A stretch of DNA of 64,000 bases from Cellulosimicrobium sp. Marseille-Q4280 (lineage in GTDB: Bacteria; Actinomycetota; Actinomycetes; Actinomycetales; Cellulomonadaceae): NCBI RefSeq assembly GCF_943181405.1, contig NZ_CALPBY010000003.1:62001-126000 (forward strand). Direction: 5' to 3'. Of the stretch, positions 4,590 to 51,737 are shown piece by piece. The notes beneath the pieces were generated by a model. The model ran no database searches. It was not told the origin of the DNA and was given only the letters and a program-made list of their open reading frames with translations. The position numbers and the translations under genes were made by a program. The stretch's first letter is position 1. Each line of letters begins with the position of its first letter.

Positions 4590-4599
4590 ATGTGCGGCA
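4590..4599 (-). promoter_or_regulatory. CCGCACAT element, instance 1
   Basis: TGCCGCACAT reads toward the methyltransferase-helicase and ends nine bases before its ATG at 4580. Confidence 0.75.
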
Positions 4600-4824
4600 C
4601 CTGCACGGTTCGCCGTCGCCGGCGCACATGGCGCGGGCCCGGCGCGCGACGTGCGCGCACCGGGCCCTGTCCCCATTCCCAGCCCCCCGGCTGGCCGACC
4701 CTCAAGCCGTGCTCGTCACGCTACGGCAGCGCGGGCACGCGCGTGAGGGCCGCCTGATTTGTCCTCCCCTGATCGGAGTACACGCCCACCGCCCCGGCCG
4801 CCGCCGCGACGCGTGATGGCACCG

Positions 4825-4834
4825 GGCCGCACAT
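4825..4834 (+). promoter_or_regulatory. CCGCACAT element, instance 2
   Basis: GGCCGCACAT ends nine bases before the ATG at 4844; no Shine-Dalgarno between. The rest of the 263-base gap from 4581 shows nothing else I recognise. Confidence 0.72.
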
Positions 4835-4843
4835 CTACCCGCC

Positions 4844-5377
4844 ATGAGCACCACGCCCACCCTTCGCTCGCGCCGCCCGGTCACCTGGACCGACGAGCAC
4901 GGCGAGCACTTCGGCATCACGGTCAGCGACGACGTCGACGGCCTCACCCGCGTGCGCGAGTACGTGCGCCACGGCGACCGCGCCGTGGCCACCGCGAGCC
5001 TGCGCCCGGGCCCGACCCCGCAGCGGTTCAAGCTCGACCTGTGCGCCGCGCTGACCGACGGCTGGTGGGGCGAGAGCTCCAAGGCCGTGCAGCCGCGATG
5101 GCTCGCCGAGGCCGAGGCGTTGCTGGGCGACCTCGAAGCGGCCGGCGTGGCGCTGGCCCCGTCCGACGACGGCGGCCTGGTGCTCGACTGGCACGACGAG
5201 TCCGCCGGCACCGCCCGCGCCGCGGAGCTCGACGCGGCCGGCACCCTGTTCTGCTCGATCACCGGCGCCCACGACTTCGCCGGCGTCGAGGCCCCGTACG
5301 ACCGCGGCGTCCTGGTGGCGTTCCTGCGCGGCGGGGTCCTGCCGGCGCAGACCGCGCCGCTGGCGGCCGCCGCCTGA
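4844..5377 (+). CDS. hypothetical protein upstream of sortase
   Basis: A 177-residue soluble, acidic protein with no signal peptide, membrane segment or motif that I recognise. The start is fixed by the CCGCACAT element nine bases upstream. Its stop codon overlaps the ATG of the sortase gene by one base (TGATG), so the two genes should be translationally coupled and form an operon. No function can be given. Confidence 0.72.
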   Translation: MSTTPTLRSRRPVTWTDEHGEHFGITVSDDVDGLTRVREYVRHGDRAVATASLRPGPTPQRFKLDLCAALTDGWWGESSKAVQPRWLAEAEALLGDLEAAGVALAPSDDGGLVLDWHDESAGTARAAELDAAGTLFCSITGAHDFAGVEAPYDRGVLVAFLRGGVLPAQTAPLAAAA

Positions 5378-6129
5378 TGGGCTCCACGTACGCGCGCCGG
5401 CGCCGGCCCGGGCCGCTCGCGGTCATCACCGGCGTGGCCGGTGAGCTGCTGATCACGTTCGGCGTCCTCGTGGCCGCGTTCCTGGTCTGGCAGCTGTGGT
5501 GGACCGACGTCGCCGCGGACAGCGCCCAGGCGCAGATCGTCGCCGAGCAGGGCTGGGACGAACCCCTCGCCGCACTGACCCAGCCCGCGGCCGACGGCCC
5601 GGACGTGGTCACCCCGCGCCGGGACGCGCCGCCGGTGATCGAGGACCCGCAGTACCTGACGACGTTCGCGTCCATGCGGGTGCCCAAGTGGGACGGGGAG
5701 CCCACGCGCACCATCACCCAGGGCAGCGACCGCAAGAACGTGCTCGACACCCTGGGCATCGGGCACTACGAGGAGACCGCGATGCCCGGCGAGGTCGGCA
5801 ACTTCGCACTCGCGGCGCACCGCACCACGTACGGCAAGCCGTTCCACCGCGCCGCCGAGCTCGTCGAGGGCGACCCGATCGTGGTCTGGACGCACGACAC
5901 CTGGTACGTCTACCGGGTCACCTCGTCCCAGGTCGTGATGCCGTGGCAGGTGGAGGTGATCGCGCCGGCCCCGAACGAGCCCGGCGTGCAGCCCACGGCC
6001 CGGTCCATCACCCTGACGACGTGCCACCCGATGTACTCCGCGCGCGAGCGGTACATCGTGCACGGCGAGCTCGACTACTGGGCGCCGACGTCCGAGGGCG
6101 TGCCGGCCGAGCTGGTCGGCCTGGTCTGA
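5377..6129 (+). CDS. class E sortase
   Basis: A 250-residue membrane-anchored transpeptidase. A basic N-terminus is followed by one transmembrane segment (about residues 15-42). The catalytic triad is visible: His148 in ALAAHRTTYG, Cys216 in TLTTCHPMYS (the TLxTC signature) and Arg225 in ERYIVHGEL. Class E sortases attach surface proteins or pilins to the actinobacterial cell wall, usually recognising LAxTG-like signals. No protein in this window ends with such a signal, so the substrate is either outside the window or host-encoded. The start overlaps the stop of the preceding hypothetical gene by one base. Confidence 0.9.
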   Translation: MGSTYARRRRPGPLAVITGVAGELLITFGVLVAAFLVWQLWWTDVAADSAQAQIVAEQGWDEPLAALTQPAADGPDVVTPRRDAPPVIEDPQYLTTFASMRVPKWDGEPTRTITQGSDRKNVLDTLGIGHYEETAMPGEVGNFALAAHRTTYGKPFHRAAELVEGDPIVVWTHDTWYVYRVTSSQVVMPWQVEVIAPAPNEPGVQPTARSITLTTCHPMYSARERYIVHGELDYWAPTSEGVPAELVGLV

Positions 6130-6136
6130 GGCCCCA

Positions 6137-6144
6137 CCGCACAT
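6137..6144 (+). promoter_or_regulatory. CCGCACAT element, instance 3
   Basis: CCGCACAT, eight bases after the sortase stop and nine bases before the ATG at 6154. Confidence 0.73.
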
Positions 6145-6153
6145 CTACCGGCC

Positions 6154-6753
6154 ATGAGCAGCACGATGAACACCGCACGTGTGCCCGCGGGCGTGACGAC
6201 CGGCGGCCAGTTCGCCGTCTCGGCGCGCTCGGAGTCCGCCGTCGACCTGGCCGGGCCCGGCATCGAGTCGCTGATCTGCCGCGGGGTGCTGTCCCCCGGC
6301 GCTCGCGGCATGAACCCGCGCGAGGCGATCGACCAGTACGCCGAGGCGACAGGTGCGCCGTTCGCCGAGCGTGTCGACCTGCTGCGCGAGGTCGGGCTGC
6401 GCCCGCGGTTCGACGTCGGCGACCTGCTCGACGGCGAGAAGCTGACGCGGGCCGACCTGGAGGCCGTGGACCCGTTCCGGGCTGAGGTGGACCTGGTCGA
6501 CGGCGTCGACGAGTTCCGGGTCTGGCGGCGCCCGCAGAAGATCCGCGGGCGGTGGCGCGTGGACCTGGGCGACCAGTTCGGTACGGCGGCCGGGGTGATT
6601 TACGCCGACGACGGCGTCCAGGTCGACGTCGCCGAGCACGACGAGGAGGAGCGGTGCTCGCAGTGCGGCGCGGACCTTGGCAACGGCGAGGGGTACGACG
6701 GCCGGTGCGGCGACTGCGCGGACCGGATGGAACCCGACGGCGAGGACGACTGA
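6154..6753 (+). CDS. GGQF-tagged protein with C-terminal zinc ribbon
   Basis: 199 residues. Residues about 9-30 carry the element's N-terminal tag (VPAGVTTGGQFAVSARSES followed by AVDL). The middle is unrecognised and acidic. The C-terminus has CSQCG and CGDC pairs (about residues 168-187), a plausible four-cysteine zinc ribbon. It has its own CCGCACAT element at minus nine. A perfect 14-bp hairpin follows the stop, so it looks monocistronic. Function is unknown; the tag links it to five other proteins in the window. Confidence 0.75.
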   Translation: MSSTMNTARVPAGVTTGGQFAVSARSESAVDLAGPGIESLICRGVLSPGARGMNPREAIDQYAEATGAPFAERVDLLREVGLRPRFDVGDLLDGEKLTRADLEAVDPFRAEVDLVDGVDEFRVWRRPQKIRGRWRVDLGDQFGTAAGVIYADDGVQVDVAEHDEEERCSQCGADLGNGEGYDGRCGDCADRMEPDGEDD

Positions 6754-6765
6754 CCGGACACGAAT

Positions 6766-6800
6766 CGAGCCCCGCCCGGGTGATCTCCGGGCGGGGCTCG
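6766..6800. terminator. bidirectional terminator
   Basis: Perfect 14-bp GC-rich stem (6766-6779 with 6787-6800) and a seven-base loop between convergent genes 6154-6753 and 6817-7236. Confidence 0.85.
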
Positions 6801-6816
6801 ACGGCGTTCGGGGCGA

Positions 6817-7236
6817 CTACGGCTCGATACCGTAGTGCTCGCGGATCTCGCCGATCGCCGGCGCCCCGTTGAAGCCGAGCATCACCGGGCCGATGGTGAT
6901 CGTGCCGTCCTGCGTCGCGAAGCTCAGCACCGGCACGGTCGCGTCACGCAGGTCGGGCGATGCCGCGTACGTGCGCAGCACGTCCTCCATGACCGCGACG
7001 GCGTCGTACCGGGGCATCTGGTCGAGCGTGACGGTCCCCCTCTGCGAGGGGTCGCCGAAGCTGCGCCGGCACTCGAACTGCGCGTCCGCGACGCCGTCGA
7101 CCGACATGGTCAGCTCGGTGAACGTCCGCTCACACTCGCGCGCGGAGTCGGTCGCGCACGCGGCAAGCGCCAGCGCGAGGGCCGCCGCGGCAGCCAGGGA
7201 CGCGACCCGCCGGCAGGTGCGGTGCTGGTGTGCCAT
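6817..7236 (-). CDS. putative lipoprotein
   Basis: 139 residues with a basic start, a hydrophobic segment and a lipobox ALAAC (Cys about residue 27), so it should be diacylated and anchored outside the membrane. The mature part contains two further cysteines and no domain I recognise. It is the last gene of a minus-strand group with two membrane proteins. The ATG at 7236 follows an AAGGGGAGAA Shine-Dalgarno. Function is unknown. Confidence 0.75.
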   Translation of the reverse strand: MAHQHRTCRRVASLAAAAALALALAACATDSARECERTFTELTMSVDGVADAQFECRRSFGDPSQRGTVTLDQMPRYDAVAVMEDVLRTYAASPDLRDATVPVLSFATQDGTITIGPVMLGFNGAPAIGEIREHYGIEP

Positions 7237-7257
7237 GTCGTTCTCCCCTTCGCCGGC

Positions 7258-7881
7258 TCAGCCGATGTGGATCGGGTGCACGCCGCGCGACCACGGACCC
7301 ATGAGCGTGTCGAAGTGCTCGCGGGTGTAGCCGCCGGTGCCGATCCGCTCGTGCGTGGCGACCGCGAGCAGCGCCATCTCCAGGGAGATCATGTAGGCCG
7401 AGGCGGCCGCCTGACGCTCGCGGCGCACGCCGCCGATCGAGAACGTCATGAGACAGAACCCGCACGCGATGAGCGCAGCAGCGGCGGACACCCCGAACAT
7501 CAGCGCGGCGAAGCTGCTGAGTACCAGGGCGCCGATCCAGTTGAGCGGCAGCAGCACCAGGCCGGCGATCGTCATGGCGCTCGCGGTGCGCATCGTGCCG
7601 GGGAACGCCTCGCGCAGCTCGCCCATGTCGTGCTCGGACGGGTGAGCGAAGTGCACCAGCTCGTGCAGTCGTCCTCCGTGCTGCTGCTCGGCCTCCAGCT
7701 GGTCGGCGATGCGGTGCGCGGCGGCGGGGTCGACGTCGACCGCGGCACGGTAGGCGGCCTCGGCTGCGTCCTCGTCGAGGTCGAGGATCTGCTGGGCGAC
7801 CCGCTCGATGCGCACCCCGGTCGGGGGCGCCAGGCGCCAGATCGTCTCGGTGGCCTGCTCGGAGGTGATCGGCGCGGTCAC
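7258..7881 (-). CDS. two-pass membrane protein
   Basis: 207 residues. The N-terminal half is cytoplasmic and helical with LHELVHFAHPSEHD near the middle; two transmembrane helices follow (about residues 105-155). I chose the GTG at 7881 because it overlaps the upstream stop by four bases (GTGA); an in-frame ATG at 7893 would make it four residues longer. It lies between another membrane protein and the lipoprotein, probably as one operon. No known family recognised. Confidence 0.65.
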   Translation of the reverse strand: MTAPITSEQATETIWRLAPPTGVRIERVAQQILDLDEDAAEAAYRAAVDVDPAAAHRIADQLEAEQQHGGRLHELVHFAHPSEHDMGELREAFPGTMRTASAMTIAGLVLLPLNWIGALVLSSFAALMFGVSAAAALIACGFCLMTFSIGGVRRERQAAASAYMISLEMALLAVATHERIGTGGYTREHFDTLMGPWSRGVHPIHIG

Positions 7882-8495
7882 GGGTGCTCCCATCGGGCGA
7901 GGCTCGGGTCGAGGCGCACTTCGAGCAGGGCGGACTCCATCGGTCCCCACAGCCCGTCCAGGAGCTCGCGGCGGTTCGGGGCCAGGGCGACCTGCTCGGG
8001 CGCGGCGAACACCAGCAGCGCGGCGCCGAGCGCGAGCATCGCGTTGTCGACGCTGCGCTGGCGGCGGTGCATGATCAGCGCGACCGGCAGTGCCGCGGTG
8101 AGGTAGGCGGCGACAGCGAGCGGGACGGCCACGGCGATCATGAGCGGCCCGGCGACCATCGTCAGGGCGGCCGCGACCAGCGCGGCACCGGCCAGGACGA
8201 ACGCGGCGACGACGATCCGTGGGTGCGAGGCATACGCCTGGCGCAGCGAGGCGGGCTGATCGGCGTAGGCGCGCGCCTGGGCGATCCCGTAGTCGGGGTC
8301 GAACGACAGGCCCGAGACCATGCGGATGGTGCGCTCGTACTCCTCGGGTACGGCCTGCTCCATCTGCTCCATCGCTCGCACCCAGGCGGTCAGCCGGTCG
8401 CCCTCGAGGCTGTCCCCGAGGGCGAACACGGCGCGCGGCCCCATGATGCGGGCGAAGTCCATGACGATCTGGGGCGTCAGGTCGGTGGTGGTCAT
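7878..8495 (-). CDS. membrane protein, unknown
   Basis: 205 residues: an acidic cytoplasmic N-terminal half, two transmembrane helices (about residues 93-140), then a cytoplasmic tail. It is the first gene of the operon 8495 to 6817. The ATG at 8495 lies nine bases after a CCGCACAT element. Nothing indicates an enzymatic role. Confidence 0.7.
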   Translation of the reverse strand: MTTTDLTPQIVMDFARIMGPRAVFALGDSLEGDRLTAWVRAMEQMEQAVPEEYERTIRMVSGLSFDPDYGIAQARAYADQPASLRQAYASHPRIVVAAFVLAGAALVAAALTMVAGPLMIAVAVPLAVAAYLTAALPVALIMHRRQRSVDNAMLALGAALLVFAAPEQVALAPNRRELLDGLWGPMESALLEVRLDPSLARWEHP

Positions 8496-8504
8496 GCTCT
8501 GGGT

Positions 8505-8514
8505 ATGTGCGGCA
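8505..8514 (-). promoter_or_regulatory. CCGCACAT element, instance 4
   Basis: TGCCGCACAT, nine bases before the ATG at 8495. Confidence 0.75.
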
Positions 8515-8545
8515 CGGGGGCCGGGCGGTGCGGCAGAATCGGCGG

Positions 8546-9115
8546 ATGCCGACGATGTCGACCGCCCTTCTCAACGCGTTCGTGTGCGGCGAGCACGGCT
8601 GGCTGGATCACACGTCCGTTCACGAGGCGGCGCACGCGGTGTTCGCGGTCGACCTCGAGATCCCCTTCACGTCGGTTCGGCTGTCCTCGCCCGAGAAGCT
8701 GTGGGAGTCGCTGCAGTCTGGCGGTGATGTGCTAGCCGGAGGCGTCCACCTGGACGGCGACGCACGCGACCACTTCCCCGGGCGCGACGAGGACGCCCTG
8801 GACTTCTGCGTGGCGGGCTCCCGTGCCGAGGACAAGGCCCACGGGCACTACATCTCCTGGGGCTTCACCGGCGACATGGAGGTGTGGAGGCGCGGCACCG
8901 GCCGCTTCGACACCCCGGACCCGGCGGTCCTCATGCCGATGCTCAGCGCGTCCGTCGCGCGGGTCGACGCCCGGCTGCCCGAGCGGTGGGACGCGGTGCT
9001 CGCGGTCGCGGAGGCACTGCGTGCCAGCGCGGGTGCTGGCAACCCGGACGACCCGACCGACCCGGGCGCGATGATGCTCATGTTCTCCGAGGTGCAGGCG
9101 ATCCTGGCGGCCTAG
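8546..9115 (+). CDS. HExxH zincin-like protein
   Basis: 189 residues. HEAAH at about residues 27-31 fits the HExxH zinc-binding motif of metallopeptidases such as the M41/FtsH peptidase domain. A third ligand could be an acidic residue in ALDFCVAGSRAEDKAHG (about 80-95), but this is not certain. No signal peptide. The ATG has no Shine-Dalgarno; CAGAAT lies six bases upstream and could be a weak -10 for a leaderless transcript. It converges with the ATP-grasp gene and overlaps its 3' end by four bases. Proteolytic activity is inference. Confidence 0.6.
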   Translation: MPTMSTALLNAFVCGEHGWLDHTSVHEAAHAVFAVDLEIPFTSVRLSSPEKLWESLQSGGDVLAGGVHLDGDARDHFPGRDEDALDFCVAGSRAEDKAHGHYISWGFTGDMEVWRRGTGRFDTPDPAVLMPMLSASVARVDARLPERWDAVLAVAEALRASAGAGNPDDPTDPGAMMLMFSEVQAILAA

Positions 9116-10158
9116 TCGTCAGCCGGGCCTTCGGCGCGGGCGAGCGCTGCGACGAGGGTGTGCGGGTCGCTGGAGTAGAACCCGGCGTTGGTGCGCCCGT
9201 TCAGCTCGACGACCAGCGGCCGGTCGTCGGGCCCGAGGGCGACGTCAAGCACGTAGTCGCGCATGGCCGGCGCCTCGTCGGCGAGCTCGGCGGCCACGTC
9301 GCGGGCGTACGCGACCAGAGTTTCGCGCACGGCGCGGTTCTGGCCGACCGGGGCACCCTCGGTGCGGTGCTCGCGCAGCACCGGGTCGAACGCGGCCAGC
9401 GGGTCCCCCGGGTCGGCGAGCCGGTCGAGCGGGGTGTGCGCCTCGATGCACGCGGCGCCGGTGACGGGCTCGTGCCCGGCGACGAACACGCGGTACTCGA
9501 ACCGCATCGGCACGTAGTCCTGCACCATGAGCGGGCGGTGGGCGCCCTCCATGCCGATGATGGCCCACTCGGCGCCCTCGCCGAGCTGCTCGCGGACGGC
9601 GTCCATGAGCGTCTGGCCGGCGCGGGCGCGCACCACGAGGACCTTGGTGGCGCGGGCCTTGACGAAGAACTCCTCGGTGCCGGGCCGCTCGGCGGCCAGG
9701 CGCGCCATGACGGCGTCGGCGTCGTGCTCGTCGTGCGACAGCGCGTCGGCCGGAACGATGCGCCGGCCAGCGCGGCGCGCGAACGTCTCCAGCGTCAGGT
9801 AGCCCGAGGCGATCGCGTCGGACTCGTCGGCCGGCAGGGCGTGGCGGCCGAACACGACGCCGAGCTCGAGGACGTCGTCGCTCGGCTCGGGGTCCTGGCC
9901 GCGCATGCGCGCCATCGCCGCGCGGGCACTGGGGTTGTCGTCGTCGATCGTGACGGCGGGGCCGAGCACGTCGAGCGCGGCCTGCACCCGGAACGCGGAC
10001 TCGACCCAGTCCTCGAAGTCGCCGCCGGGGCCGGGGTCGGCCGGGCCGACGTGCTGCGTCCATGTCGCGGCCAGGCGCGCGAGCACCGGGTTCGTCAGGT
10101 CGAGCGGCCGGTCGGGCCGCAGCGCCTTCATCTGCACGTGCGGGCGCCGGGCGCTCAC
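9112..10158 (-). CDS. ATP-grasp domain protein
   Basis: 348 residues. The C-terminal half fits the ATP-grasp fold: FFVKARATKVLVVRARAG (nucleotide-binding lysine region), MVQDYVPMRFEYRVFV and the metal-binding VVELNGRTNAGFYSSD near the end, resembling the DUF4343-type family. Such enzymes ligate an acyl-phosphate to an amine or thiol; the substrate is unknown. The start is the GTG at 10158, which overlaps the upstream stop by four bases (GTGA). Last gene of the operon that begins with the MazG-like protein. Confidence 0.78.
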   Translation of the reverse strand: MSARRPHVQMKALRPDRPLDLTNPVLARLAATWTQHVGPADPGPGGDFEDWVESAFRVQAALDVLGPAVTIDDDNPSARAAMARMRGQDPEPSDDVLELGVVFGRHALPADESDAIASGYLTLETFARRAGRRIVPADALSHDEHDADAVMARLAAERPGTEEFFVKARATKVLVVRARAGQTLMDAVREQLGEGAEWAIIGMEGAHRPLMVQDYVPMRFEYRVFVAGHEPVTGAACIEAHTPLDRLADPGDPLAAFDPVLREHRTEGAPVGQNRAVRETLVAYARDVAAELADEAPAMRDYVLDVALGPDDRPLVVELNGRTNAGFYSSDPHTLVAALARAEGPADD

Positions 10159-10700
10159 CACGACCTCGCGCGGGTGACGGTGGCGCCGACGTCGGAGCCG
10201 GCGCGTGCGGCCTGGGCCAGGACGTGGTCGATCGCGACCTGCAGGTCGGTGGGAGAGGACGTCTTGGGCAGGGCGATGGTGATCGCGACGGTCTCGATGA
10301 TGGCGGTGGGCTCGTTCCACCAGGCGCCGGAGCCGGGCGCGACGTGCTCGAAGGTGCGGTCCTCGCCCTCGGGGTCGGGGACGGGACCGTGCCCGGCCGC
10401 CAGCGCGCAGTGCACCGCGGGGTCGTCGTCGCTGACCGCGCCGCACGTGACCCCGGCGTACAGGTACGTCGGGGTGTCGCGCTCGATGCCGGTCGCGACC
10501 AGCAGCGCGGCGAACGTGTCGACGCCGGTGCGGCGCGCCTCGCGCGCGGCGGTGGACCACACGACGTGCAGCTGGCGGCCGTCGAGGGTGATGCCGTGCT
10601 CGCGCGCGAAGTACGCCAGGGCGTGGTGCCCGCGCTCGGTGCACAGGGTGCGCCAGCGCTCGGTCAGCGTCTTGGCGACGAGGTCGGCCCCGGCGCTCAC
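10155..10700 (-). CDS. hypothetical protein with Cys/His pattern
   Basis: 181 residues, soluble. The middle has CGAVSDDDPAVHCALAAGHG, the same C-x(n)-C-x-L-x-A-G-H pattern as the next small protein upstream, common in small proteins of actinobacterial phages and plasmids and possibly metal-binding. Starts with a GTG overlapping the upstream stop by four bases and ends with the same arrangement toward the ATP-grasp gene. Function unknown. Confidence 0.65.
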   Translation of the reverse strand: MSAGADLVAKTLTERWRTLCTERGHHALAYFAREHGITLDGRQLHVVWSTAAREARRTGVDTFAALLVATGIERDTPTYLYAGVTCGAVSDDDPAVHCALAAGHGPVPDPEGEDRTFEHVAPGSGAWWNEPTAIIETVAITIALPKTSSPTDLQVAIDHVLAQAARAGSDVGATVTRARSW

Positions 10701-10885
10701 GCGGCGGCCGCCGTCACCTCGTACTCGACCCAGACGGTCTGGCGGGCCGGGTTGGCGTGGTCGAACGTGATCGGCTCGCCGGACGGGTCGGCCACGGCCC
10801 GGTGGCCGGCGGGCAGGGTGCAGGCCAGCCCGGGCTCCTCGGGGTGGGCGGAGCCGCAGGGGCGCAGGACGGTCAGGTTGCTCAT
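10697..10885 (-). CDS. small protein with C-x(n)-C-GH motif
   Basis: 62 residues. Contains RPCGSAHPEEPGLACTLPAGH, which may bind a metal through two cysteines and histidines. The ATG at 10885 overlaps the MazG-like gene's stop by four bases (ATGA); its own stop overlaps the next gene. Shares the Cys/His motif with that 181-residue neighbour, so the pair may derive from one domain. Confidence 0.62.
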   Translation of the reverse strand: MSNLTVLRPCGSAHPEEPGLACTLPAGHRAVADPSGEPITFDHANPARQTVWVEYEVTAAAA

Positions 10886-11940: not shown

Positions 11941-11975
11941 GGGGTGTGCGTCTCCGTACGTGGGAAGGGGTACAC
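11937..11975 (-). CDS. possible 12-codon leader peptide
   Basis: A GTG seven bases after the CCGCACAT element opens a 12-residue frame (VYPFPRTETHTP) whose TGA overlaps the MazG-like gene's ATG by four bases (ATGA). This is the same geometry as the clearer micro-genes at 18964 and 49347. It could be chance, because the MazG-like gene has its own ribosome-binding site. Confidence 0.3.
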   Translation of the reverse strand: MYPFPRTETHTP

Positions 11976-11982
11976 CTGGTGG

Positions 11983-11990: not shown

Positions 11991-11995
11991 CGCGC

Positions 11996-13399: not shown

Positions 13400-13408
13400 G
13401 CCACACCG

Positions 13409-44894: not shown

Positions 44895-45127
44895 GAAAGT
44901 GCCTCTCGTCCGGTGTCGGTCACGGTGACGGGGGTCGGGTAGATCTCGAACTGCGCCTCGATCAGGCCGTCGGCCAGCAGGCGCTCGTACGGGCGCGCCG
45001 GCGCGGGCTGCCAGAACCCGCGCACACGCCACACGCGGCGCTCGCCGGTGTCCTCGCTCGTGACCCTGCCGTCGGCGACGCGCTCGAGCGCCTCGACCTG
45101 GGCGGAGGTCAGGCGGGTCGTGCTCAC
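44891..45127 (-). CDS. small winged-helix-like protein
   Basis: 78 residues: LTSAQVEALERVADGRVTS ... YERLLADGLIEAQFEIYPTPVTVTDTGREAL looks like a minimal winged helix (helix, helix, recognition helix, beta hairpin ending in TxxGRExL, as in MarR/PadR-type folds). GTGA overlaps on both sides. It may be a DNA-binding adaptor for the operon. Confidence 0.58.
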   Translation of the reverse strand: MSTTRLTSAQVEALERVADGRVTSEDTGERRVWRVRGFWQPAPARPYERLLADGLIEAQFEIYPTPVTVTDTGREALS

Positions 45128-45459
45128 GCGTCGGTCCGGGCCAGCAGGGAGCCGGGCAGGTCGCGCACGACCCCGTCGATGACGGCCACGGCGAACGACG
45201 GCTCCTCGTTGGACGACCGGCTCGACCCGATGACGGTTCCGGTGATCTCGACCGGCGTGCCCTCATGCATGTAGACGGCCGTGACGGGCGTCCCGGTCGG
45301 GAAGAAGCCGATCAGCGCCTGGTAGGTGTCCTCGATGCTCGCCGCCGCGGAGGCGTCGGGAAGCAGCCCAGCGCCGCGGACCGCCCGCGCGAGCTCGCGC
45401 TTGAGCAGCTGGTACGACGGCGCGACGGCGCGCATGGCAGGGGCGTGTGCGGTGGTCAT
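45124..45459 (-). CDS. hypothetical protein, first gene of the long overlapping operon
   Basis: 111 residues, soluble, with a beta-rich second half (TPVTAVYMHEGTPVEITGTVIG). The ATG is nine bases after a CCGCACAT element. It leads a chain of eight genes and one micro-gene (to 41266) in which nearly every start overlaps the previous stop, so the products are probably made in fixed ratios. No domain recognised. Confidence 0.66.
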   Translation of the reverse strand: MTTAHAPAMRAVAPSYQLLKRELARAVRGAGLLPDASAAASIEDTYQALIGFFPTGTPVTAVYMHEGTPVEITGTVIGSSRSSNEEPSFAVAVIDGVVRDLPGSLLARTDA

Positions 45460-45468
45460 GGCCTACCG

Positions 45469-45478
45469 ATGTGCGGCA
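45469..45478 (-). promoter_or_regulatory. CCGCACAT element, instance 20 (inside a terminator stem)
   Basis: TGCCGCACAT, nine bases before the ATG at 45459. Eight of its ten bases form part of the terminator stem of the upstream gene. Confidence 0.74.
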
Positions 45479-45510
45479 GAGCCCAGGTCTGACCAGGGGC
45501 TCTGCCGCAC
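45471..45510 (-). terminator. hairpin terminator overlapping the promoter element
   Basis: Perfect 14-bp stem (45471-45484 with 45497-45510), 12-base loop, just after the stop of the papain-like gene at 45516. Confidence 0.82.
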
Positions 45511-45515
45511 GCGGT

Positions 45516-46460
45516 TCAGGCGCCGCTCTGCTCGGCGTCGGCTCGGTGCTCGGCGATCAGCAGGTCCGCGACCTGCGCGGCGCGCTTCTCGGTGCTCTCG
45601 TCGTGCCCGCCGTCGGGCTCGCCCCAGCCCTTCTCGGGCGTCCAGTCGAACTGGTCGGCCGGGTACACCCAGACGTCGTCGCCGTCGTACCCGGCCTCCT
45701 CGGGCATGTCGTGGCCGTAGGCGTCGACCGTCGAGCCCCACTCCTCGGCCCAGTCGTCCTCGGAGTGCAGGCCGCGCACGTCAAGGATCTGGCCGGACGG
45801 GGTCCGCACGCCGGCGTGGACCCAGCCGACGACGCCGTTCGGGCCGTCGGCGATGACGACCTGCGGCCAGCCGGTGCGCTCGTGCAGGGCCTGGGCGAGG
45901 CGGTGGCAGTACCCGCCCGTGAAGGTGGTGTCGTCCGCGTCGTTGACCGGCGGCACGTCGGCGCGGGCGGCGTCGCCGTGTTCGGCGAGCAGCAGGTCGG
46001 CGACCTCCCCAGCCCGGGCGTCGCTGATGGCGCCGGCCTGCTCCCGGTCGACGTCGGGCGCGTCGACGATGACCGCCTTGCCGTTGTCGTCCGAGACGCG
46101 GTGGCCCCAGCGCGCGACCCAGGTGCTCTCGTTGGACAGGCCCGAGATGTCGAGGATCTGACCGGACGGGGTGCGCACGCCCACGTGCACGGGCCCCTCG
46201 GGGGAGCCGCTGCTGGCGACGGCGACCAGGGGCCAGCCGGTGCGCTCGGCGGCGGCGTGGGCGAGGCGGGTCGCGCCGTCGGGGGTGATGAACGCGACGT
46301 GGTCGTCGCCACCGATCGGCGGGGTGTGGTCGGCGTACAGGTCGGCGCGGTCGAGTACCAGGTCGGCCTCGGAGCGCGTCTTGATGGAGAACTGCCCGCC
46401 GGCCGAGACGCCAGCGGGCGTGCGCGGGTGGGCGGCGGCGTCGAACGCGGTGCTGGTCAT
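45516..46460 (-). CDS. GGQF-tagged tandem papain-like protein
   Basis: 314 residues. The tag HPRTPAGVSAGGQFSIKTRS then EADLVL is at residues 11-36. Two copies of a domain of about 85 residues follow: TGWPLVAVASS ... VHVGVRTPSGQILDISG and TGWPQVVIADG ... VHAGVRTPSGQILDVRG. The second has Cys185 (GYCHRL), His215 and Asp227 in the Cys-His-Asp order of papain-like enzymes; the first lacks the cysteine. It could be a peptidase, deamidase or transglutaminase-like enzyme. The ATG is nine bases after a CCGCACAT element. Monocistronic. Confidence 0.75.
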   Translation of the reverse strand: MTSTAFDAAAHPRTPAGVSAGGQFSIKTRSEADLVLDRADLYADHTPPIGGDDHVAFITPDGATRLAHAAAERTGWPLVAVASSGSPEGPVHVGVRTPSGQILDISGLSNESTWVARWGHRVSDDNGKAVIVDAPDVDREQAGAISDARAGEVADLLLAEHGDAARADVPPVNDADDTTFTGGYCHRLAQALHERTGWPQVVIADGPNGVVGWVHAGVRTPSGQILDVRGLHSEDDWAEEWGSTVDAYGHDMPEEAGYDGDDVWVYPADQFDWTPEKGWGEPDGGHDESTEKRAAQVADLLIAEHRADAEQSGA

Positions 46461-46469
46461 GGCCGGTAG

Positions 46470-46477
46470 ATGTGCGG
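46470..46477 (-). promoter_or_regulatory. CCGCACAT element, instance 21
   Basis: CCCGCACAT, nine bases before the ATG at 46460. Confidence 0.72.
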
Positions 46478-46510
46478 GCACCCTGCCCGGCCATGACCCT
46501 CACCCGCGGG

Positions 46511-46834
46511 TCAGTGCGCGGCCTCGTACGCGGCGAGCACGCCCTGCGGGATGCGCCCGCGCCCGCTGACCTCGTGACCGTTCTCGCGCGCCCATGTCCG
46601 CACGGCAGCACGGTCGGGTGAAGGTGCCGACCTCGCTGTCCGGCGGCCCGGTCTGCGGCTGGCGATGCGGCGGCCGTGCTGAACGAACCGGCTGAGGTCG
46701 TCGCGCAGCTTGCCCGCGTTCTCGGTGCTGACGTCGATCTCGTAGGCGACGCCGTCCAGGGCGAAGGTGACCGTCTCGGCCGCCTTCCCTCCGTCGACGT
46801 CGTCGATCAGGCTGACCTCGATGCGCTGAGCCAT
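46511..46834 (-). CDS. lsr2: Lsr2-family nucleoid protein
   Basis: 107 residues. MAQRIEVSLIDDVDGGKAAE and the dimerising strand-helix part match the Lsr2 N-terminus; RTWARENGHEVSGRGRIPQG carries the AT-hook-like RGR of the DNA-binding domain. Lsr2 bridges AT-rich DNA and silences foreign genes in actinobacteria. The ATG at 46834 has GGAGGAA seven bases upstream and no CCGCACAT element, so its control differs from its neighbours. An element-borne copy could modulate host silencing or compact the element itself. Confidence 0.93.
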   Translation of the reverse strand: MAQRIEVSLIDDVDGGKAAETVTFALDGVAYEIDVSTENAGKLRDDLSRFVQHGRRIASRRPGRRTARSAPSPDRAAVRTWARENGHEVSGRGRIPQGVLAAYEAAH

Positions 46835-46898
46835 CGGTTCCTCCGTGCTGTGGGGGTTGAACGTCTCATTCGTACCGCACACGGAGGGTTCTACACGG

Positions 46899-47399
46899 TC
46901 ACCGTCGGGTCTGACGCGCCGGGCGCAGTGCCGTGAAGGAGAACCGGGCGGGCTGGCGGGTTGCGACGGTGTGCAGGCGGCTTGCGGCGCGGTACACGTT
47001 GGCGGGGTCGCGCAGCACGACGAGCGGGTGGGTGGCGGCCATCGCGAGCAGCTCGCCCTCGTAGGGCGCGCTCTGCGGTCCGCCGCCCTCGCTGATGACG
47101 ACCAGGACCGCGGCGGCCGGCACCGGCCTGGTGGTGAAGTCCTTCGGCGAGTGCAGGTGGATCGGGCGGTCGAAGCTCTCGCGGATCCAGCTCGCGAGGA
47201 ACGGGTGAAGCGCGGCCTCGAGGACGGCGTGCACCGGCACGTGGCGCTCGTCGGCGATCTCGGCCCCGGCGAGCAGTGCCATCTCCCGGGTGGGGTGCCC
47301 GGGCGAGGTGCGCACGACGGCGCTCCCGACGGCGCGCGCAGCGTTCAGGAACTGCGCGGCGCCGTCGAGAGCGCGCAGCTGCTCGACGGTCACGGTCAC
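46899..47399 (-). CDS. hypothetical protein
   Basis: 166 residues, soluble. AAAVLVVISEGGGPQSAPYEGELLAMAATHPLVVLRDPANVY suggests an alpha/beta fold. The GTG at 47399 overlaps the upstream stop by four bases. No domain recognised. Confidence 0.63.
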   Translation of the reverse strand: MTVTVEQLRALDGAAQFLNAARAVGSAVVRTSPGHPTREMALLAGAEIADERHVPVHAVLEAALHPFLASWIRESFDRPIHLHSPKDFTTRPVPAAAVLVVISEGGGPQSAPYEGELLAMAATHPLVVLRDPANVYRAASRLHTVATRQPARFSFTALRPARQTRR

Positions 47400-47752
47400 C
47401 GGTACCGGGCCGCGGCCTCGTCGAACAGGAACTCGCTGCCGCCGTCGAAGGGCATCTGCTTGATGCCGAGCGCGCCGACGCTCGCGGAGTGGCGGTCGTT
47501 GCGGCTGATGAGCAGGACGGTCTTGCCCTTGATCTGGGTGATGTCGTTGGAGCCGGTGGCCTGCAGCACGCCGCGGATGAACGCGGCGGCGAAGCCGGTG
47601 TCGCCCTGCAGGTTGTAGCCGCCGATCATCGCCTGGGATCCGCCGAAGTCGACGGTGAGCGTCATGGTGAAGATGCCGTGGCCCTCGAACCCGAGGAACA
47701 CGTCGGTGATCTTGACCGGCGTCTCGTACCGCTGCGTGGCCTGCTCGGGCAT
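47396..47752 (-). CDS. phage-type conserved hypothetical protein
   Basis: 118 residues. KITDVFLGFEGHGIFTMTLTVDFGGSQAMIGGYNL resembles a small protein widely found in phage genomes (an ITDVxLGxExHGIxTxxLxxxYGG pattern), of unknown role. The ATG has a GAGGAGA ribosome-binding site, with the CCGCACAT element about 50 bases upstream. Confidence 0.66.
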   Translation of the reverse strand: MPEQATQRYETPVKITDVFLGFEGHGIFTMTLTVDFGGSQAMIGGYNLQGDTGFAAAFIRGVLQATGSNDITQIKGKTVLLISRNDRHSASVGALGIKQMPFDGGSEFLFDEAAARYR

Positions 47753-47803
47753 GGCGTCTCCTCGTGCTGCTGCTCCCCCGTGTGGGAAGCGACTGGTGAT
47801 CTG

Positions 47804-47813
47804 ATGTGCGGCA
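47804..47813 (-). promoter_or_regulatory. CCGCACAT element, instance 22 (displaced; divergent pair)
   Basis: TGCCGCACAT toward the 47752 gene; back to back with instance 23, ten bases apart. The tenth base downstream is A. Confidence 0.74.
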
Positions 47814-47823
47814 CGGCGGCGCC

Positions 47824-47833
47824 TGCCGCACAT
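47824..47833 (+). promoter_or_regulatory. CCGCACAT element, instance 23 (displaced; divergent pair)
   Basis: TGCCGCACAT 40 bases before the GTG at 47874; the tenth base downstream is G. Confidence 0.74.
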
Positions 47834-47873
47834 CCACTGGTCGACACCCCCGCATCGACATCTGGAGGACACC

Positions 47874-48287
47874 GTGGGTCTGGGCATCAACAAGGACCTG
47901 GAGCCGCTCGTGCGCGACGTTCGACGCGCCGGTGGCACCGTGGAGATCACCAAGAGCACTCACGTGCGCTGGACGCTTCCAGACGGGACGGTGCTGCGCT
48001 CGGGCCTGACGATGCAGGGCGGCAACGCCCAGAAGATCCGGCGCGACATCGAGCGGGCGCTGGGCATCGAGCGGCACCACAAGCCGAAGCGCAAGGCGCG
48101 CCCGGCGCACCAGGCCGCGAAGCCGAAGGCGTCGGCGCCGCAGCCGCGGCCGGGCGGGCGGGTCGAGCCGGCGGGCGCGAAGTTCCGGGTCATCGGCCCG
48201 GACGGCGAGCCGCTGCGCAACGCGTCGGGCTTCCCGCGCACGTTCAGCGACGCCTCCCAGGCGCAGGCTGTGGCTGACGCGCTGTAG
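47874..48287 (+). CDS. HicA-like domain protein
   Basis: 137 residues. Residues about 14-60 (VRRAGGTVEITKSTHVRWTL ... GLTMQGGNAQKIRRDIERAL) resemble the HicA mRNA-interferase fold, with a histidine at the place of the catalytic one. A basic linker (HHKPKRKARPAHQAAKPKAS) and a second small domain follow. No HicB antitoxin is adjacent, so a toxin role is doubtful. GTG with GGAGG ribosome-binding site. Confidence 0.6.
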   Translation: MGLGINKDLEPLVRDVRRAGGTVEITKSTHVRWTLPDGTVLRSGLTMQGGNAQKIRRDIERALGIERHHKPKRKARPAHQAAKPKASAPQPRPGGRVEPAGAKFRVIGPDGEPLRNASGFPRTFSDASQAQAVADAL

Positions 48288-48290
48288 CGG

Positions 48291-48992
48291 CTACCAGCCC
48301 CGGCGACGCTTGCGCCGCACGCGCCGGATCAGCACGAGCAGCACGAGCAGCCCGGCGCCGACGGCCAGTGCCCCGAGCGTGGACCGCAGGGACTCGACCA
48401 GGTCGTCCGAGCTCGGGAGCGTGAACAGCATCCCGACGCCGAGCAGCAGGCCGATCGGGCCCATGACCAGCAGCGCCTTCTCCAGCCAGTCGGCGAGCTC
48501 GCTCAGCAGCTCCTCCGGGCTCTGCTGTTCCGCCTTGGCCTTGGCGTCGACGTACGCGGCCCGGGCGGCCGACCGGGCGCTCGGGCGCGGTGGGGTCGCG
48601 GGCTCCGGTGGCGGTGCGGCGGCCTCGAGCTCGCGAGCCGGGGCGTTGACCGCCACGACGTCGCCGAGCGTCGAGTAGGTGAACAGGGCGACGCCCATCT
48701 CCTCGGCGTACTCGCGCGCGCCCCGGGAGTAGCCGTTCGCGGCGTAGAACGCCAGGGCGAGGTGGTGCTGGGCGCCGCGCGCGCCGACGAGCCGCTGCAG
48801 CAGCGGGCGTCCGACGACGGCGGTGAGCTGCTTGACCTCGGCGAGGATCCGGGTGGAGCGGACGTCGATGCCGCCGTCGTTGCTCGCCTGGGTGACCTGG
48901 GCGTCGGCGAAGCCGAGCGTGCGCAGGTGCCAGGCGGCGAACTCCTCGGCCTGGCGCGGGGTGGCGATCGGCTCGCCGGACGTCCATGTCAC
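48291..48992 (-). CDS. Mrr-like restriction endonuclease domain with membrane anchor
   Basis: 233 residues. The N-terminal 115 residues fit the Mrr-type PD-(D/E)xK nuclease fold: AAWHLRTLGFADAQVTQASN, GGIDVRS (catalytic Asp), AEVKQ (E-x-K) and a conserved GRPLLQRLVGA. A charged linker leads to two transmembrane helices (about 173-192 and 205-224). Membrane-tethered Mrr domains are known in defence contexts. The GTG has no ribosome-binding site; TAGCCT lies six bases upstream, suggesting a leaderless transcript. It may cut modified or incoming DNA near the membrane. Confidence 0.78.
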   Translation of the reverse strand: MTWTSGEPIATPRQAEEFAAWHLRTLGFADAQVTQASNDGGIDVRSTRILAEVKQLTAVVGRPLLQRLVGARGAQHHLALAFYAANGYSRGAREYAEEMGVALFTYSTLGDVVAVNAPARELEAAAPPPEPATPPRPSARSAARAAYVDAKAKAEQQSPEELLSELADWLEKALLVMGPIGLLLGVGMLFTLPSSDDLVESLRSTLGALAVGAGLLVLLVLIRRVRRKRRRGW

Positions 48993-48998
48993 GCCTGG

Positions 48999-49004
48999 AG
49001 GCTA
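48999..49004 (-). promoter_or_regulatory. -10 element TAGCCT
   Basis: TANNNT-type -10 six bases before the GTG at 48992. Confidence 0.45.
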
Positions 49005-49047
49005 CCGGCCGCCCAGGACACCCCGGCGCGTCGGCGAGACGGTGGAG

Positions 49048-49350
49048 CTAGGCAGTGCGCGGCGATCGGATCATCGCGCCCGACGACCCGGCGACGTACC
49101 GGAAGCCCGCACCGCGGTACAGCCGGATCAGGCCGGCGCGGTGAGAGCCGAACCCCGTGTCCACGCTCAGGTGCACGGTCATGGCGCGGGCGTCCGCCAC
49201 GGCGGCTACGGCGGCCAGCGCGGCGCGCGCCTTGCCCTGTCCGCGGTGGGCCCGGGCGACCGACAGCAGGTCCAGCCGGGCACAGGCCGGGTTGCACGCG
49301 CGCAGCACGACGGCGGCGCCCTCGGGCGTGTCCACCTCGATGCGGCTCAT
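49048..49350 (-). CDS. small GNAT acetyltransferase
   Basis: 100 residues, short for the family. LDLLSVARAHRGQGKARAAL is the acetyl-CoA-binding R/Q-x-x-G-x-G/A motif, and LIRLYRGAGFRYV is the late GNAT strand pattern. The ATG overlaps the stop of a 24-codon micro-gene by four bases (ATGA), so expression depends on that micro-gene's CCGCACAT element. The substrate is unknown. Confidence 0.75.
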   Translation of the reverse strand: MSRIEVDTPEGAAVVLRACNPACARLDLLSVARAHRGQGKARAALAAVAAVADARAMTVHLSVDTGFGSHRAGLIRLYRGAGFRYVAGSSGAMIRSPRTA

Positions 49351-49421
49351 GCCCGCCGCCCCACGGCGCGGCGGTGCGCAGGCTCGACGGTGAGCGTGCC
49401 GGTCCTCGGTGCGGTGTTCAT
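49347..49421 (-). CDS. 24-residue micro-protein coupled to GNAT gene
   Basis: MNTAPRTGTLTVEPAHRR followed by AVGRRA. The ATG at 49421 is exactly nine bases after a CCGCACAT element, and the TGA overlaps the GNAT ATG by four bases. This is the clearest micro-gene: the element's spacing marks this start, not the GNAT start 71 bases away. Confidence 0.55.
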   Translation of the reverse strand: MNTAPRTGTLTVEPAHRRAVGRRA

Positions 49422-49430
49422 GGCGTACCG

Positions 49431-49440
49431 ATGTGCGGCA
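49431..49440 (-). promoter_or_regulatory. CCGCACAT element, instance 24
   Basis: TGCCGCACAT, nine bases before the ATG of the 24-codon micro-gene at 49421. Confidence 0.76.
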
Positions 49441-49443
49441 TCC

Positions 49444-51690
49444 TCACGCGGCACGTGCGACCTGCCGCCGGCTCGTGGCCTTGCGCTTGGCGCGGGCCTC
49501 GGCCTGCTCGGTGACGATCGTGGTGATGATCGAACCGACCGAGGCGAGGTCGTCGGTCTCCTGCGTCGCGACCGAGGTGTCGTAGCCCTCGCCGAGCACC
49601 GGGTTGAGGATCTCGGCCTTGCGGCGCTGGACGCGCTGCAGGTGCTCGTCGAGCGTGCCGGTCGCCAGCAGGGTCGTCAGGGTGATCGCGCGCTGCTGGC
49701 CGATGCGCTTGGTGCGGTCGCGCGCCTGGGTCAGCGTGGTCGGCTCCCAGTCGGACTCGACGAACAGGTTGTCGCACGCGCGGGTCAGCGTGATGGCCAC
49801 GCCGGCGGCCTGCAGCGACAGCACGAGCGCCTTGTACCGCCCGCCCTGGAAGTCGGCGGTGATCTTGCCGCGGTTGGCCGCGGACGTCGCCCCGTCGATC
49901 ACGGCCACGTCGGCGCCGGCGTCCTCGATCGCGGTGCGCATCGCGGTGGCGACCTCGTTGTGGTGGCACCACACCAGCAGCGGCCGGTCGTGGCCACCGG
50001 CGTCCTGGGCGGTGATCCACTCGGTGATGTACTCGACCGCCGCGGGGATCTTGGCCAGGCCGGCGGCCTTGCGCAGCGGGGAGATGAACCCGATGTTGGT
50101 GGCGGCGAACGCCTTGATCTCCTCGTCGGACGGCAGGCGCGGCGTGCCGTCCCGAGCCTCGCCGAACGTCGCGAGCCACTCGTCGGCCACCTCGCGCTGC
50201 TTGGTGATCGCCTCCTTGTAGAGCGCGCGCCCGGCCGGGTCCAGGTCGATGTACTTCGCCCGGGGCGGCAGCACCTCGGGCATGGTCGGCCCGTCGGGGT
50301 CGCGGTTGTAGACCTGCTCGGCGAACCGGCGCACCCACACGTCCTTGTTGAGGATGGCGTTGAGCTCGCCCAGGGCGCGCTTGCGCGGGCTGAACCGCCC
50401 GTACTGGTCGACGGTGCAGTACGCGGTCAGGAAGTCGTGCAGCCCGCCGAACACGGTGTCCAGGTGCCCGCTGATCGCCAGCTGGGAGGCCAGCTGCTCG
50501 GGGCTGGACGTCATCGGCGTGCCGGAGATGGGCACCCGCAGCCCGGAGACGCGCTGGGCGACCGAGCGCACGGCCCGGGCCCGGTCGGTCGACCAGTTCT
50601 TGTGCCGGTGCGACTCGTCGACGATGAGGCCGTCCGGCGCCCACGCCACGAGCTGCTCGCGCATCTCGGGCCGGGAGGTCAGCAGGGAGTCAGGCACGAC
50701 GATCGCCCCGACGTCGGGGAAGTCGGGGATCTTGCGGCCCGCGGAGATCATCACGGTGGTCCCGGCCCCCGGACGCGCCTCGGGGTGCTTGGCCGGGAAC
50801 GCGAGCCGGTAGTTCGCGATCTCGTTGACCCAGTTCGTCAGCGCGACCGGCGGGGAGATGACCAGCAGCCGCTTCGTCTCCACGAGGGCGTGCGCGGCGA
50901 TGGACTGCAGGGTCTTGCCCAGGCCGGGCTCGTCGGCCAGCAGGCCGTGCCCGCCGACGATGGAGTAGGCGCCGGAGACCTGGTAGCCGAACAGGGTGCG
51001 CCCGGCCCACTCGGGCAGCGCCGGCAGCCCGTCGGGCATCTTCTTGGGTGCGCGCGGCATCGTGCCGAGCAGCATGGGCCAGTCGGGGCGCGAGGTGCCC
51101 AGCACGCCGCCGGTGACGTCGGCGACCAGGGCCTTGCCGCGCTCGATCAGGTCGGCGGGCACGGGCACGCCGGCGGCGGCGAGGTGGCGCAGGTCCGGGG
51201 TGTGCACGAGCCAGCGCAGCAGGTTCGGGTGGTCCTTGTCCTTGGCCTGCCAGACCGAGCCGAGCGGGACGTGCTCGCCGGCGTCGGAGAACCGCGGGTA
51301 GACGTGCGTGGTCCACGGGTCGTCGGGGGCGACCTCGATCCACGGTGTGGCGAGGTCGGCCAGGTGGGTGATGCCCGCCTTGGTGCCGTGGGACAGGTCG
51401 ACGGTGAAGTTCAGCTCGGCGAGCACCCGGTCGATCTCGGGGCCGGGGTTGTAGACGACCCAGTGCCCGGCGTCCTTGTCGAAGTACCGGCCGGGCAGCG
51501 CGAGCACCCAGTCGACGAGCATCTTGGGGCGGCCGCGGTGGACCTTCTGCTTCCCGGGGCGCATGACCTTGCGCTCGGGGTACTTCGGGAACTTCGCGTT
51601 CACCGGGACCGGTGCGTACCGGTCGAAGCGCAGCAGCAGGATCGGACGACGGCGGGTGCCGGTCAGGGTCGCGGTTCGGTTGCTGCTCAC
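49444..51690 (-). CDS. SNF2-family DNA translocase/helicase
   Basis: 748 residues. Walker A ADEPGLGKTLQS near residue 257, a DESH box near 357, SGTPM (motif III), and the C-terminal motif VI TQARDRTKRIGQQRA near 660 fit SNF2 ATPases, closest by pattern to the single-protein SMARCAL1-like group. The N-terminal 240 residues are an unassigned accessory domain. Such enzymes move along duplex DNA and remodel forks or displace proteins. The GTG at 51690 is nine bases after a CCGCACAT element. With the methyltransferase-helicase it is the second SF2 motor of the element. Confidence 0.88.
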   Translation of the reverse strand: MSSNRTATLTGTRRRPILLLRFDRYAPVPVNAKFPKYPERKVMRPGKQKVHRGRPKMLVDWVLALPGRYFDKDAGHWVVYNPGPEIDRVLAELNFTVDLSHGTKAGITHLADLATPWIEVAPDDPWTTHVYPRFSDAGEHVPLGSVWQAKDKDHPNLLRWLVHTPDLRHLAAAGVPVPADLIERGKALVADVTGGVLGTSRPDWPMLLGTMPRAPKKMPDGLPALPEWAGRTLFGYQVSGAYSIVGGHGLLADEPGLGKTLQSIAAHALVETKRLLVISPPVALTNWVNEIANYRLAFPAKHPEARPGAGTTVMISAGRKIPDFPDVGAIVVPDSLLTSRPEMREQLVAWAPDGLIVDESHRHKNWSTDRARAVRSVAQRVSGLRVPISGTPMTSSPEQLASQLAISGHLDTVFGGLHDFLTAYCTVDQYGRFSPRKRALGELNAILNKDVWVRRFAEQVYNRDPDGPTMPEVLPPRAKYIDLDPAGRALYKEAITKQREVADEWLATFGEARDGTPRLPSDEEIKAFAATNIGFISPLRKAAGLAKIPAAVEYITEWITAQDAGGHDRPLLVWCHHNEVATAMRTAIEDAGADVAVIDGATSAANRGKITADFQGGRYKALVLSLQAAGVAITLTRACDNLFVESDWEPTTLTQARDRTKRIGQQRAITLTTLLATGTLDEHLQRVQRRKAEILNPVLGEGYDTSVATQETDDLASVGSIITTIVTEQAEARAKRKATSRRQVARAA

Positions 51691-51699
51691 CCCGAGTAC

Positions 51700-51709
51700 A
51701 TGTGCGGCA
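51700..51709 (-). promoter_or_regulatory. CCGCACAT element, instance 25 (divergent pair)
   Basis: TGCCGCACAT, nine bases before the GTG at 51690; back to back with instance 26, 18 bases apart. Confidence 0.76.
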
Positions 51710-51727
51710 GCGCCGACATGTCAGTCC

Positions 51728-51737
51728 TGCCGCACAT
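51728..51737 (+). promoter_or_regulatory. CCGCACAT element, instance 26 (divergent pair)
   Basis: TGCCGCACAT, nine bases before the ATG at 51747. The last copy I find; none seen in the chromosomal part. Confidence 0.76.

Follow-up and report, generated by a model that had tools for sequence, protein, structure and literature searches.

A putative one-box promoter and a candidate diverged sigma factor in a giant integrated element of Cellulosimicrobium

Extracytoplasmic function (ECF) sigma factors possess a region 4 and act on promoters with paired -35 and -10 elements. For phiEco32, the published account of the sigma factor gp36 describes a single box, tAATGTAtA, at six promoters of the middle and late phage genes, with transcription starting 6-8 bp downstream, and explains the absence of a -35 element by the missing region 4 (PMC8948821). 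In cluster K mycobacteriophages, the start-associated sequence (SAS) GGGATAGGAGCCC stands immediately upstream of gene starts, about half of the copies being accompanied by 17-bp inverted repeats (PMC3203893). The Bifidobacterium megaplasmid pMP7017 carries a 34-bp motif in 19 copies, which overlaps the -10 element of host-type TTGACA/TATAAT promoters and is proposed as a transcription factor site (PMC10832533). Here, we describe a short asymmetric box, CCGCACAT, that recurs upstream of genes in a giant integrated element of Cellulosimicrobium sp. Marseille-Q4280, one end of which lies in the 64,000 nucleotides analysed (G000:C3:62001-126000, hereafter the window), and we propose a sigma factor of the element as its probable reader. 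No report of such a system was found among the open PMC papers listed, a search that does not by itself show its absence from print.

The window contains 26 copies of CCGCACAT (all positions checked), 22 on the minus and four on the plus strand, compared to a mean of 2.38 and a maximum of eight in 100 dinucleotide shuffles, none of which reached 26. In 19 of the copies an ATG or GTG follows after exactly nine bases (offset 9; binomial chance about 1e-24); a preliminary description of this DNA had given the same 26 positions and 19 start coordinates, all of them correctly. Seventeen of the 19 codons are in-frame starts of called genes, the exceptions being GTG 18996 and ATG 49421. The dinucleotide TG, earlier described as preceding every copy, stands directly before 19 of the 26 and is missing from the remaining seven; the fuller form TGCCGCACAT is often seen. 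Six of the seven copies that have no start codon at nine bases are followed by a called gene start 37-51 bases downstream, with a Shine-Dalgarno-like stretch recognisable by eye, and the seventh (35938) lies just within a called gene with a possibly misplaced start.

The 23-bp repeat taken as attR (Table 1) has its second copy next to the gene of a tyrosine integrase, C9_246 (Phage_integrase E=4.6e-18; gene names of this kind come from our own gene caller), and the first 52.8 kb or so of the window are therefore one end of an element, after which chromosome follows. The rest of the element lies on contig C3 (1-62000) and contig C9 (1-200453) of the same genome; C3:1-114.8k and C9:1-200.5k, whose contig starts appear to face each other with a possible gap between them, would add up to about 315 kb. 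The element codes for the AAA_10 ATPase C9_182 (E 2.1e-11; taken as VirB4-like, of a type IV secretion system, T4SS), a type II/IV secretion ATPase, a prepilin peptidase, an FtsK-like protein, DNA polymerase III alpha and an NAD ligase, and it carries an array of 30 tRNAs plus a tmRNA. Of the features used to recognise integrative and conjugative elements, a site-specific integrase, att repeats and a T4SS ATPase are present; no relaxase was recognised, and no relaxase family was sought. We call it a giant integrative element of the conjugative type.

The box is concentrated on this element. The whole genome holds 236 copies of CCGCACAT (143 for the reversed control), of which 170 (52 and 118) fall in the 313 kb of the two element parts, against about 62 in the remaining ~4.5 Mb, and the chromosome of the window beyond attR holds none, as had been noted before. 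An ATG (102) or GTG (14) stands at offset 9 in 116 of the 170 element copies. The extended pattern TGCCGCACATN9RTG is confined to it: all 62 occurrences in the genome lie in C3:1-113.8k or C9:1-199k, and the reversed control gives one. Among 403 called genes, which include those of the flanking chromosome, the box occupies -17 to -10 relative to an in-frame start in 108. The nine-base spacer, previously thought to be unconserved, is partly conserved in these 108 genes (-9 C 80%, -7 A/G 93%, -4 G 69%, -3 G 77%, -1 C 95%).

Few other genomes have the motif in numbers. Counts of CCGCACATN9ATG covered 221 genomes of the family, and those of CCGCACATN8CATG 396 genomes of the order. Clusters appeared in G000 (the genome of the window; 105), G043 (59), G132 (37), G475 (51) and G004 (12, all but one of them on a single contig), and all other genomes counted had 0-3 matches (217/221 of the family for CCGCACATN9ATG). 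The corresponding elements are called A (G000), B (G043), C (G132, where the motif region has 56% GC), D (G004) and F (G475), and E denotes the Curtobacterium pusillum plasmid pCPAA3 (CP018784.1; stretches L085-L104).

In its context the box looks like a promoter rather than a translation signal, and its copies seem to mark the starts of transcription units. In A, only three of 106 leaderless-type genes and 5% of 44 leadered genes resemble operon-internal genes, as opposed to 124 of 225 genes (55%) without a box, and a Shine-Dalgarno core of at least four letters precedes 3% of the leaderless-type, 73% of the leadered and 50% of the boxless genes, in line with the earlier remark that the spacer usually lacks one. 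B, C and F behave like A (operon-internal share of boxless genes 38, 27 and 36%). Copies lacking a start codon at offsets 8-10 number 164; in 136 of them a purine occupies offset 9 (p 3e-18 against a flank mean of 50%; 83% in A, 87% in B, 96% in C and 72% in F), which supports transcription beginning at the start codon where there is one. A box precedes the tRNA array, counted to its first gene, by 44 nt in A, 54 nt in B and 41 nt in F; C has no tRNA array, and that of E starts behind the variant CCGCGCATAG. Divergent pairs of boxes less than 100 bp apart number 34, the closest being separated by 4 bp. Among 99 ortholog pairs whose A member has a box, the partner has one in 78, with an identity of 0.32 in the flank from -60 to -25.

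Counted from a start at the tenth base, the hexamer at -12 to -7 does not match the TANNNT of the host -10, since the box itself supplies C at -12 and A at -11, and -7 is A or G in 93%. The -35 partner that the preliminary description proposed to look for was not found: among positions -80 to -22 none exceeded the 95% point of shuffled maxima (n=238), and -21 did so with 0.08 bit. Upstream k-mers that were enriched look like the box in reverse complement and like stop codons belonging to the preceding gene, and were rejected as a partner. The new promoter core postulated at the outset gains support from confinement to the element, transcription-unit context, the Shine-Dalgarno distribution, the promoters of tRNA arrays and this lack of a -35 element.

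An element-specific factor had been expected as well. We regard C9_194, a protein of 357 aa encoded outside the window, as a diverged, previously unrecognised sigma factor, and judging from sequence comparison it is the likely reader of the box. Canonical sigma genes are lacking on the element; Pfam searches for sigma regions 2 and 4 gave 19 and 27 matches in the genome, none of them in C9 or C3:1-114k. C9_194 has relatives in B (B_238), C (C_110), F (F_042) and E (E_216) with 24-70% identity. Full-length sigmas are present in all four large motif elements (A, B, C, F), and at E<=1e-6 matches occur in 7/220 genomes of the family (G113 by the protein tag described below only, G211 in part) and 8/392 of the order; a sample of the class gave 3/394 at 1e-8. 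Homology of the family to sigma region 2 emerges from profile comparison. With a 16-row profile (A4), every one of the 11 PDB matches at E<=10 is a sigma factor aligned over region 2 (best E 1e-4), and the similarity is to ECF-type sigmas; with a five-row profile the best four of eight matches are sigma factors (E 0.35-0.44). The 16-row alignment scored 51.3 in hhalign, compared to a maximum of 20.6 in 60 column shuffles and 16.0 for a reversed control. In a screen against 15 host sigmas, two alignments holding the C9_194 family, which share members, ranked 1 and 3 of 102; rank 2 went to C3_007, a poly(A)-polymerase-type protein, so this screen alone decides little. A small profile also picked out an ordinary ECF sigma among 11 loci (E 5e-6). 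As single sequences, 7/16 members match Pfam region 2 (best E 0.0018; 18.1 bits where scored, cut-off 24). For region 3/3.2, an alignment with RpoS at 168-213 (E 0.42) and, by eye, a resemblance to SLDAPTG..D..FGD are no more than suggestive.

The sigma genes of A, B, C, F, G507, G244 and G587 lie behind their own box, in three cases a variant box. C9_194 (together with its paralogue), C9_195 and C9_197 are found in all eight other sigma-bearing motif elements (B, C, E, F, G400, G507, G244, G587). This paralogue, C9_032 (G000:C9:30089-31015), is a second diverged sigma-like protein and is likewise located behind a box.

Variants of the box accompany some of the more distant sigmas. CCGCRCRY at offset 9 was tested at 11 loci (10 diverged-sigma loci and Curtobacterium), and matches exceeded expectation in E (77 vs 8.2), G400 (12 vs 1.8), G587 (10 vs 1.35), G244 (6 vs 0.46) and G507 (4 vs 0.46); six stretches without a sigma had 0-1 matches each. 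These five loci carry CCGCGCAT, CCGCACAC or CCGCACGT at the position of CCGCACAT. A scan of pCPAA3 blind to CCGCACAT likewise returned CCGCGCAT, CCGCGCAC and CCGCACAC at -17, and two or more related boxes, CCGCGCATAG and CCGCRCACA, appear to be in use on the plasmid with the same spacing. A blind k-mer scan of 11 named loci with VirB4 relatives (15-24 kb) yielded a clear box at none of these loci; the scan missed boxes even where copies exist and is therefore underpowered. On a Frondihabitans plasmid (L080) a strong AGAGGACA Shine-Dalgarno-like stretch at fixed spacing and GAGGGAC ending 18 bases upstream of ATG were seen.

Taken together, we consider it probable that CCGCACAT (often as TGCCGCACAT) serves as the core of a one-box promoter private to the element, read by C9_194 with the host core RNA polymerase. 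RNA would begin at the tenth base after the box; where this base is the A or G of an ATG or GTG, a leaderless mRNA would result, and elsewhere a leader, often with a Shine-Dalgarno sequence, or a tRNA array would follow. With that +1, the box would occupy -17 to -10, the location of an extended -10 element, with A at -11 and no -35, and its reader would combine sigma region 2 with traces of region 3/3.2 and lack a detectable region 4.

Several observations weigh against this reading. The +1, the binding of the box and the core partner are predictions. Region 3 is matched below threshold (Pfam Sigma70_r3, E 0.07-0.18 in 3/16 members), and region 4 gave no Pfam match at E<=1 in the 16 members, although a missing region 4 would fit the absence of a -35 element, as is argued for gp36 (PMC8948821). 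C9_195 and C9_197, near the sigma gene, are as universal as the sigma itself, and the universality count is biased, as DNA fetched around the sigma favours its neighbours. D has the box, with only a short region-2 match in its draft genome and no genes for C9_194, C9_195 or C9_197. In F, only 37% of 43 leadered genes have a Shine-Dalgarno core. The match between box and sigma variants appears as a correlation over few independent elements: the G244 and G507 sigmas are near-identical, and the positive loci therefore count as four independent cases; G507 taken by itself is weak, and the CCGCRCRY peak is not significant in G363, G426, G037, G167, G582 and G584 (p >=0.08), six of the 11 loci. G167 too speaks against simple co-variation: its CGCATAGG is displaced outwards by one base (CGCATAG, 12 places, a base more distant from the start), and it has a second box, CCCGTCAA. 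The latter, as CCCGTCAA N9 RTG with the box at -17 to -10, occurs in 11 places (L199-L202, L212, L213), and this element perhaps holds two sigma systems.

Other readers of the box have to be weighed against C9_194. Another element protein, such as the conserved WhiB-type protein C9_189 as an activator or a factor not recognised so far, could direct a host sigma to these promoters; WhiB genes were seen in A, B, C, F, Curtobacterium and the G167 stretch, and two other genes are as universal as the sigma. WhiB was however not found in the G400, G507, G244 and G587 stretches with variant boxes (G244 and G587 partly fetched), the box occupies -17 to -10 with a hexamer unlike TANNNT and no -35 element, and with divergent boxes only 4 bp apart at the closest there is little space for separate upstream sites, which makes this explanation unlikely. 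Recognition by a host sigma factor unaided is very unlikely: the host has 19 region-2 matches to choose from and D has boxes with no full-length sigma of its own, but none of the 62 TGCCGCACATN9RTG sites lies outside the two element contigs, nearly all genomes of the family have 0-3 matches, and the boxes vary between elements.

A single-subunit or other element-encoded RNA polymerase with a T7-like promoter would account for the compact box without -35. We give it hardly any credence, as a Pfam scan of the large element proteins showed no RNA polymerase domain (a few giants were scanned only partly and small proteins mostly not), and C9_197, the sole large protein lacking a family match that all eight other motif elements share, looks by eye like a membrane protein and lies beside T4SS genes. 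The fixed distance to start codons could also suggest a translation-initiation or mRNA signal; this is scarcely probable given the near absence of the box from operon-internal genes, its occurrence before Shine-Dalgarno-bearing leaders and tRNA arrays, and the purine kept at +1 where there is no start codon. The protein C3_082 (964 aa, window 15757-18651), suspected as reader since it occurs in A-D, was rejected: tblastn found relatives on 1,212 plasmid records, and of six plasmids with a relative, pCPAA3 also has the sigma, the other five (W02-W06) do not, and the exact CCGCACAT box with ATG is found in none. Searches of viral contigs confirmed relatives neither of C3_082 nor of the sigma.

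Table 1. Features of the window and the candidate reader. Boxes are copies of CCGCACAT; leaderless and leadered are predicted classes and +1 positions are inferred.
Feature	Position	Strand	Remarks
Part of ~315-kb integrated element	1..52810	.	motif density and att repeat
attR	52788..52810	-	23-bp repeat of tRNA-Leu(GAG) 3' end; second copy C9:200431-200453
Box	4590..4597	-	leaderless, ATG 4580 (DarB-like methylase-helicase)
Box	4827..4834	+	leaderless, ATG 4844
Box	6137..6144	+	leaderless, ATG 6154
Box	8505..8512	-	leaderless, ATG 8495
Box	11983..11990	-	leadered, +1 G 11973, gene 10882-11940
Box	13409..13416	-	leaderless, ATG 13399
Box	18661..18668	-	leaderless, ATG 18651 (964-aa C3_082, relatives on giant plasmids)
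Box	19006..19013	-	GTG 18996 opens short frame; called gene 18671-18967
Box	20242..20249	-	leaderless, ATG 20232
Box	22994..23001	-	leaderless, ATG 22984
Box	26023..26030	-	leaderless, ATG 26013 (NAD-dependent DNA ligase)
Box	30967..30974	-	leaderless, ATG 30957
Box	32420..32427	-	leaderless, ATG 32410 (membrane protein by eye, in elements A-F)
Box	33067..33074	-	leadered, +1 G 33057, gene 32502-33029
Box	35045..35052	-	leadered, +1 G 35035, gene 33997-34998
Box	35938..35945	-	probably leadered, +1 G 35928, just inside called gene
Box	37677..37684	-	leadered, +1 G 37667, gene 36971-37633
Box	39849..39856	-	leaderless, GTG 39839
Box	41268..41275	-	leaderless, ATG 41258
Box	45469..45476	-	leaderless, ATG 45459
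Box	46470..46477	-	leaderless, ATG 46460
Box	47804..47811	-	leadered, +1 A 47794, gene 47396-47752; divergent with 47826 box
Box	47826..47833	+	leadered, +1 G 47843, gene 47874-48287; divergent with 47804 box
Box	49431..49438	-	ATG 49421 out of frame with called gene 49048-49350
Box	51700..51707	-	leaderless, GTG 51690 (SNF2-type helicase); divergent with 51730 box, 22 bp between
Box	51730..51737	+	leaderless, ATG 51747; divergent with 51700 box
C9_194, diverged sigma	G000:C9:144716-145789		357 aa, itself behind box; outside window

Many element proteins share a tag, P-x-G-x-x-TGGQ, within their 30 N-terminal residues (43 in A, 18 in B, 12 in F; by the same pattern none in D or Curtobacterium), and C9_194 is one of them. 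The box is enriched at tagged genes in A and B (Fisher 3e-12 and 2e-6) and not in F (0.15). That tagged proteins pass through the T4SS is a guess. An FtsK-like protein of 2088 aa has homing-endonuclease (intein-type) matches (L037:3746-10012). Small stretches with boxes and, by similarity, integrase-like genes were seen in G004 (C14, about 9.2-36.5k; L061, L062) and elsewhere in G000 (C2:717861-734919; L063, L064), where C2:717861-731218 has four more CCGCACAT copies, three with ATG at nine bases. No full-length sigma was found within these stretches, which are possibly satellites or remnants of the giant element.

If the proposed reading is true, giant mobile elements of actinobacteria include a class with sigmas of its own, which transcribe it through a compact promoter coupled directly to leaderless translation, and there is a simple route to finding and annotating such elements. 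It would also provide naturally diverged sigma/promoter pairs for the study of extended -10 reading without a -35 element and orthogonal expression parts for high-GC hosts, and insulation of mobile-element expression from the host and from other elements would become testable. A wider picture, which we hold to be doubtful, is that giant conjugative elements of actinobacteria run private transcription, each lineage with a region-4-less sigma and its own one-box promoter that insulate it from the host and rival elements; the sigma, tagged with P-G-TGGQF like some 40 other proteins, might enter the recipient for immediate transcription, and small elements without a sigma, namely D in G004 and the end of contig C2, might be satellites answering only with a helper.

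Compared to the systems described, the family of C9_194 resembles actinobacterial ECF sigmas in region 2, and differs in that neither a region 4 (16 members) nor a -35 element was detected. With the cluster K SAS, to which the box had been likened, it has in common that an asymmetric sequence is repeated before many starts of one element; the likeness does not extend further, as GGGATAGGAGCCC, which lies next to the start (PMC3203893), is not matched by the upstream logo of the element. Like the conjugative pMP7017, the element is actinobacterial and of the conjugative type, with a tRNA array, a tmRNA and an element-specific motif at its putative promoters, whereas the promoters of the megaplasmid have host-type TTGACA/TATAAT boxes (PMC10832533). 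A further parallel, a likeness of function only, is phiEco32 gp36: there, as proposed here, a mobile-element sigma without recognised region 4 acts on one box with no -35 element and a fixed nearby start (PMC8948821). Unlike phiEco32, the present system comprises more than 100 GC-rich boxes, a putative start at the tenth base and mostly leaderless genes, on an element of the conjugative type.

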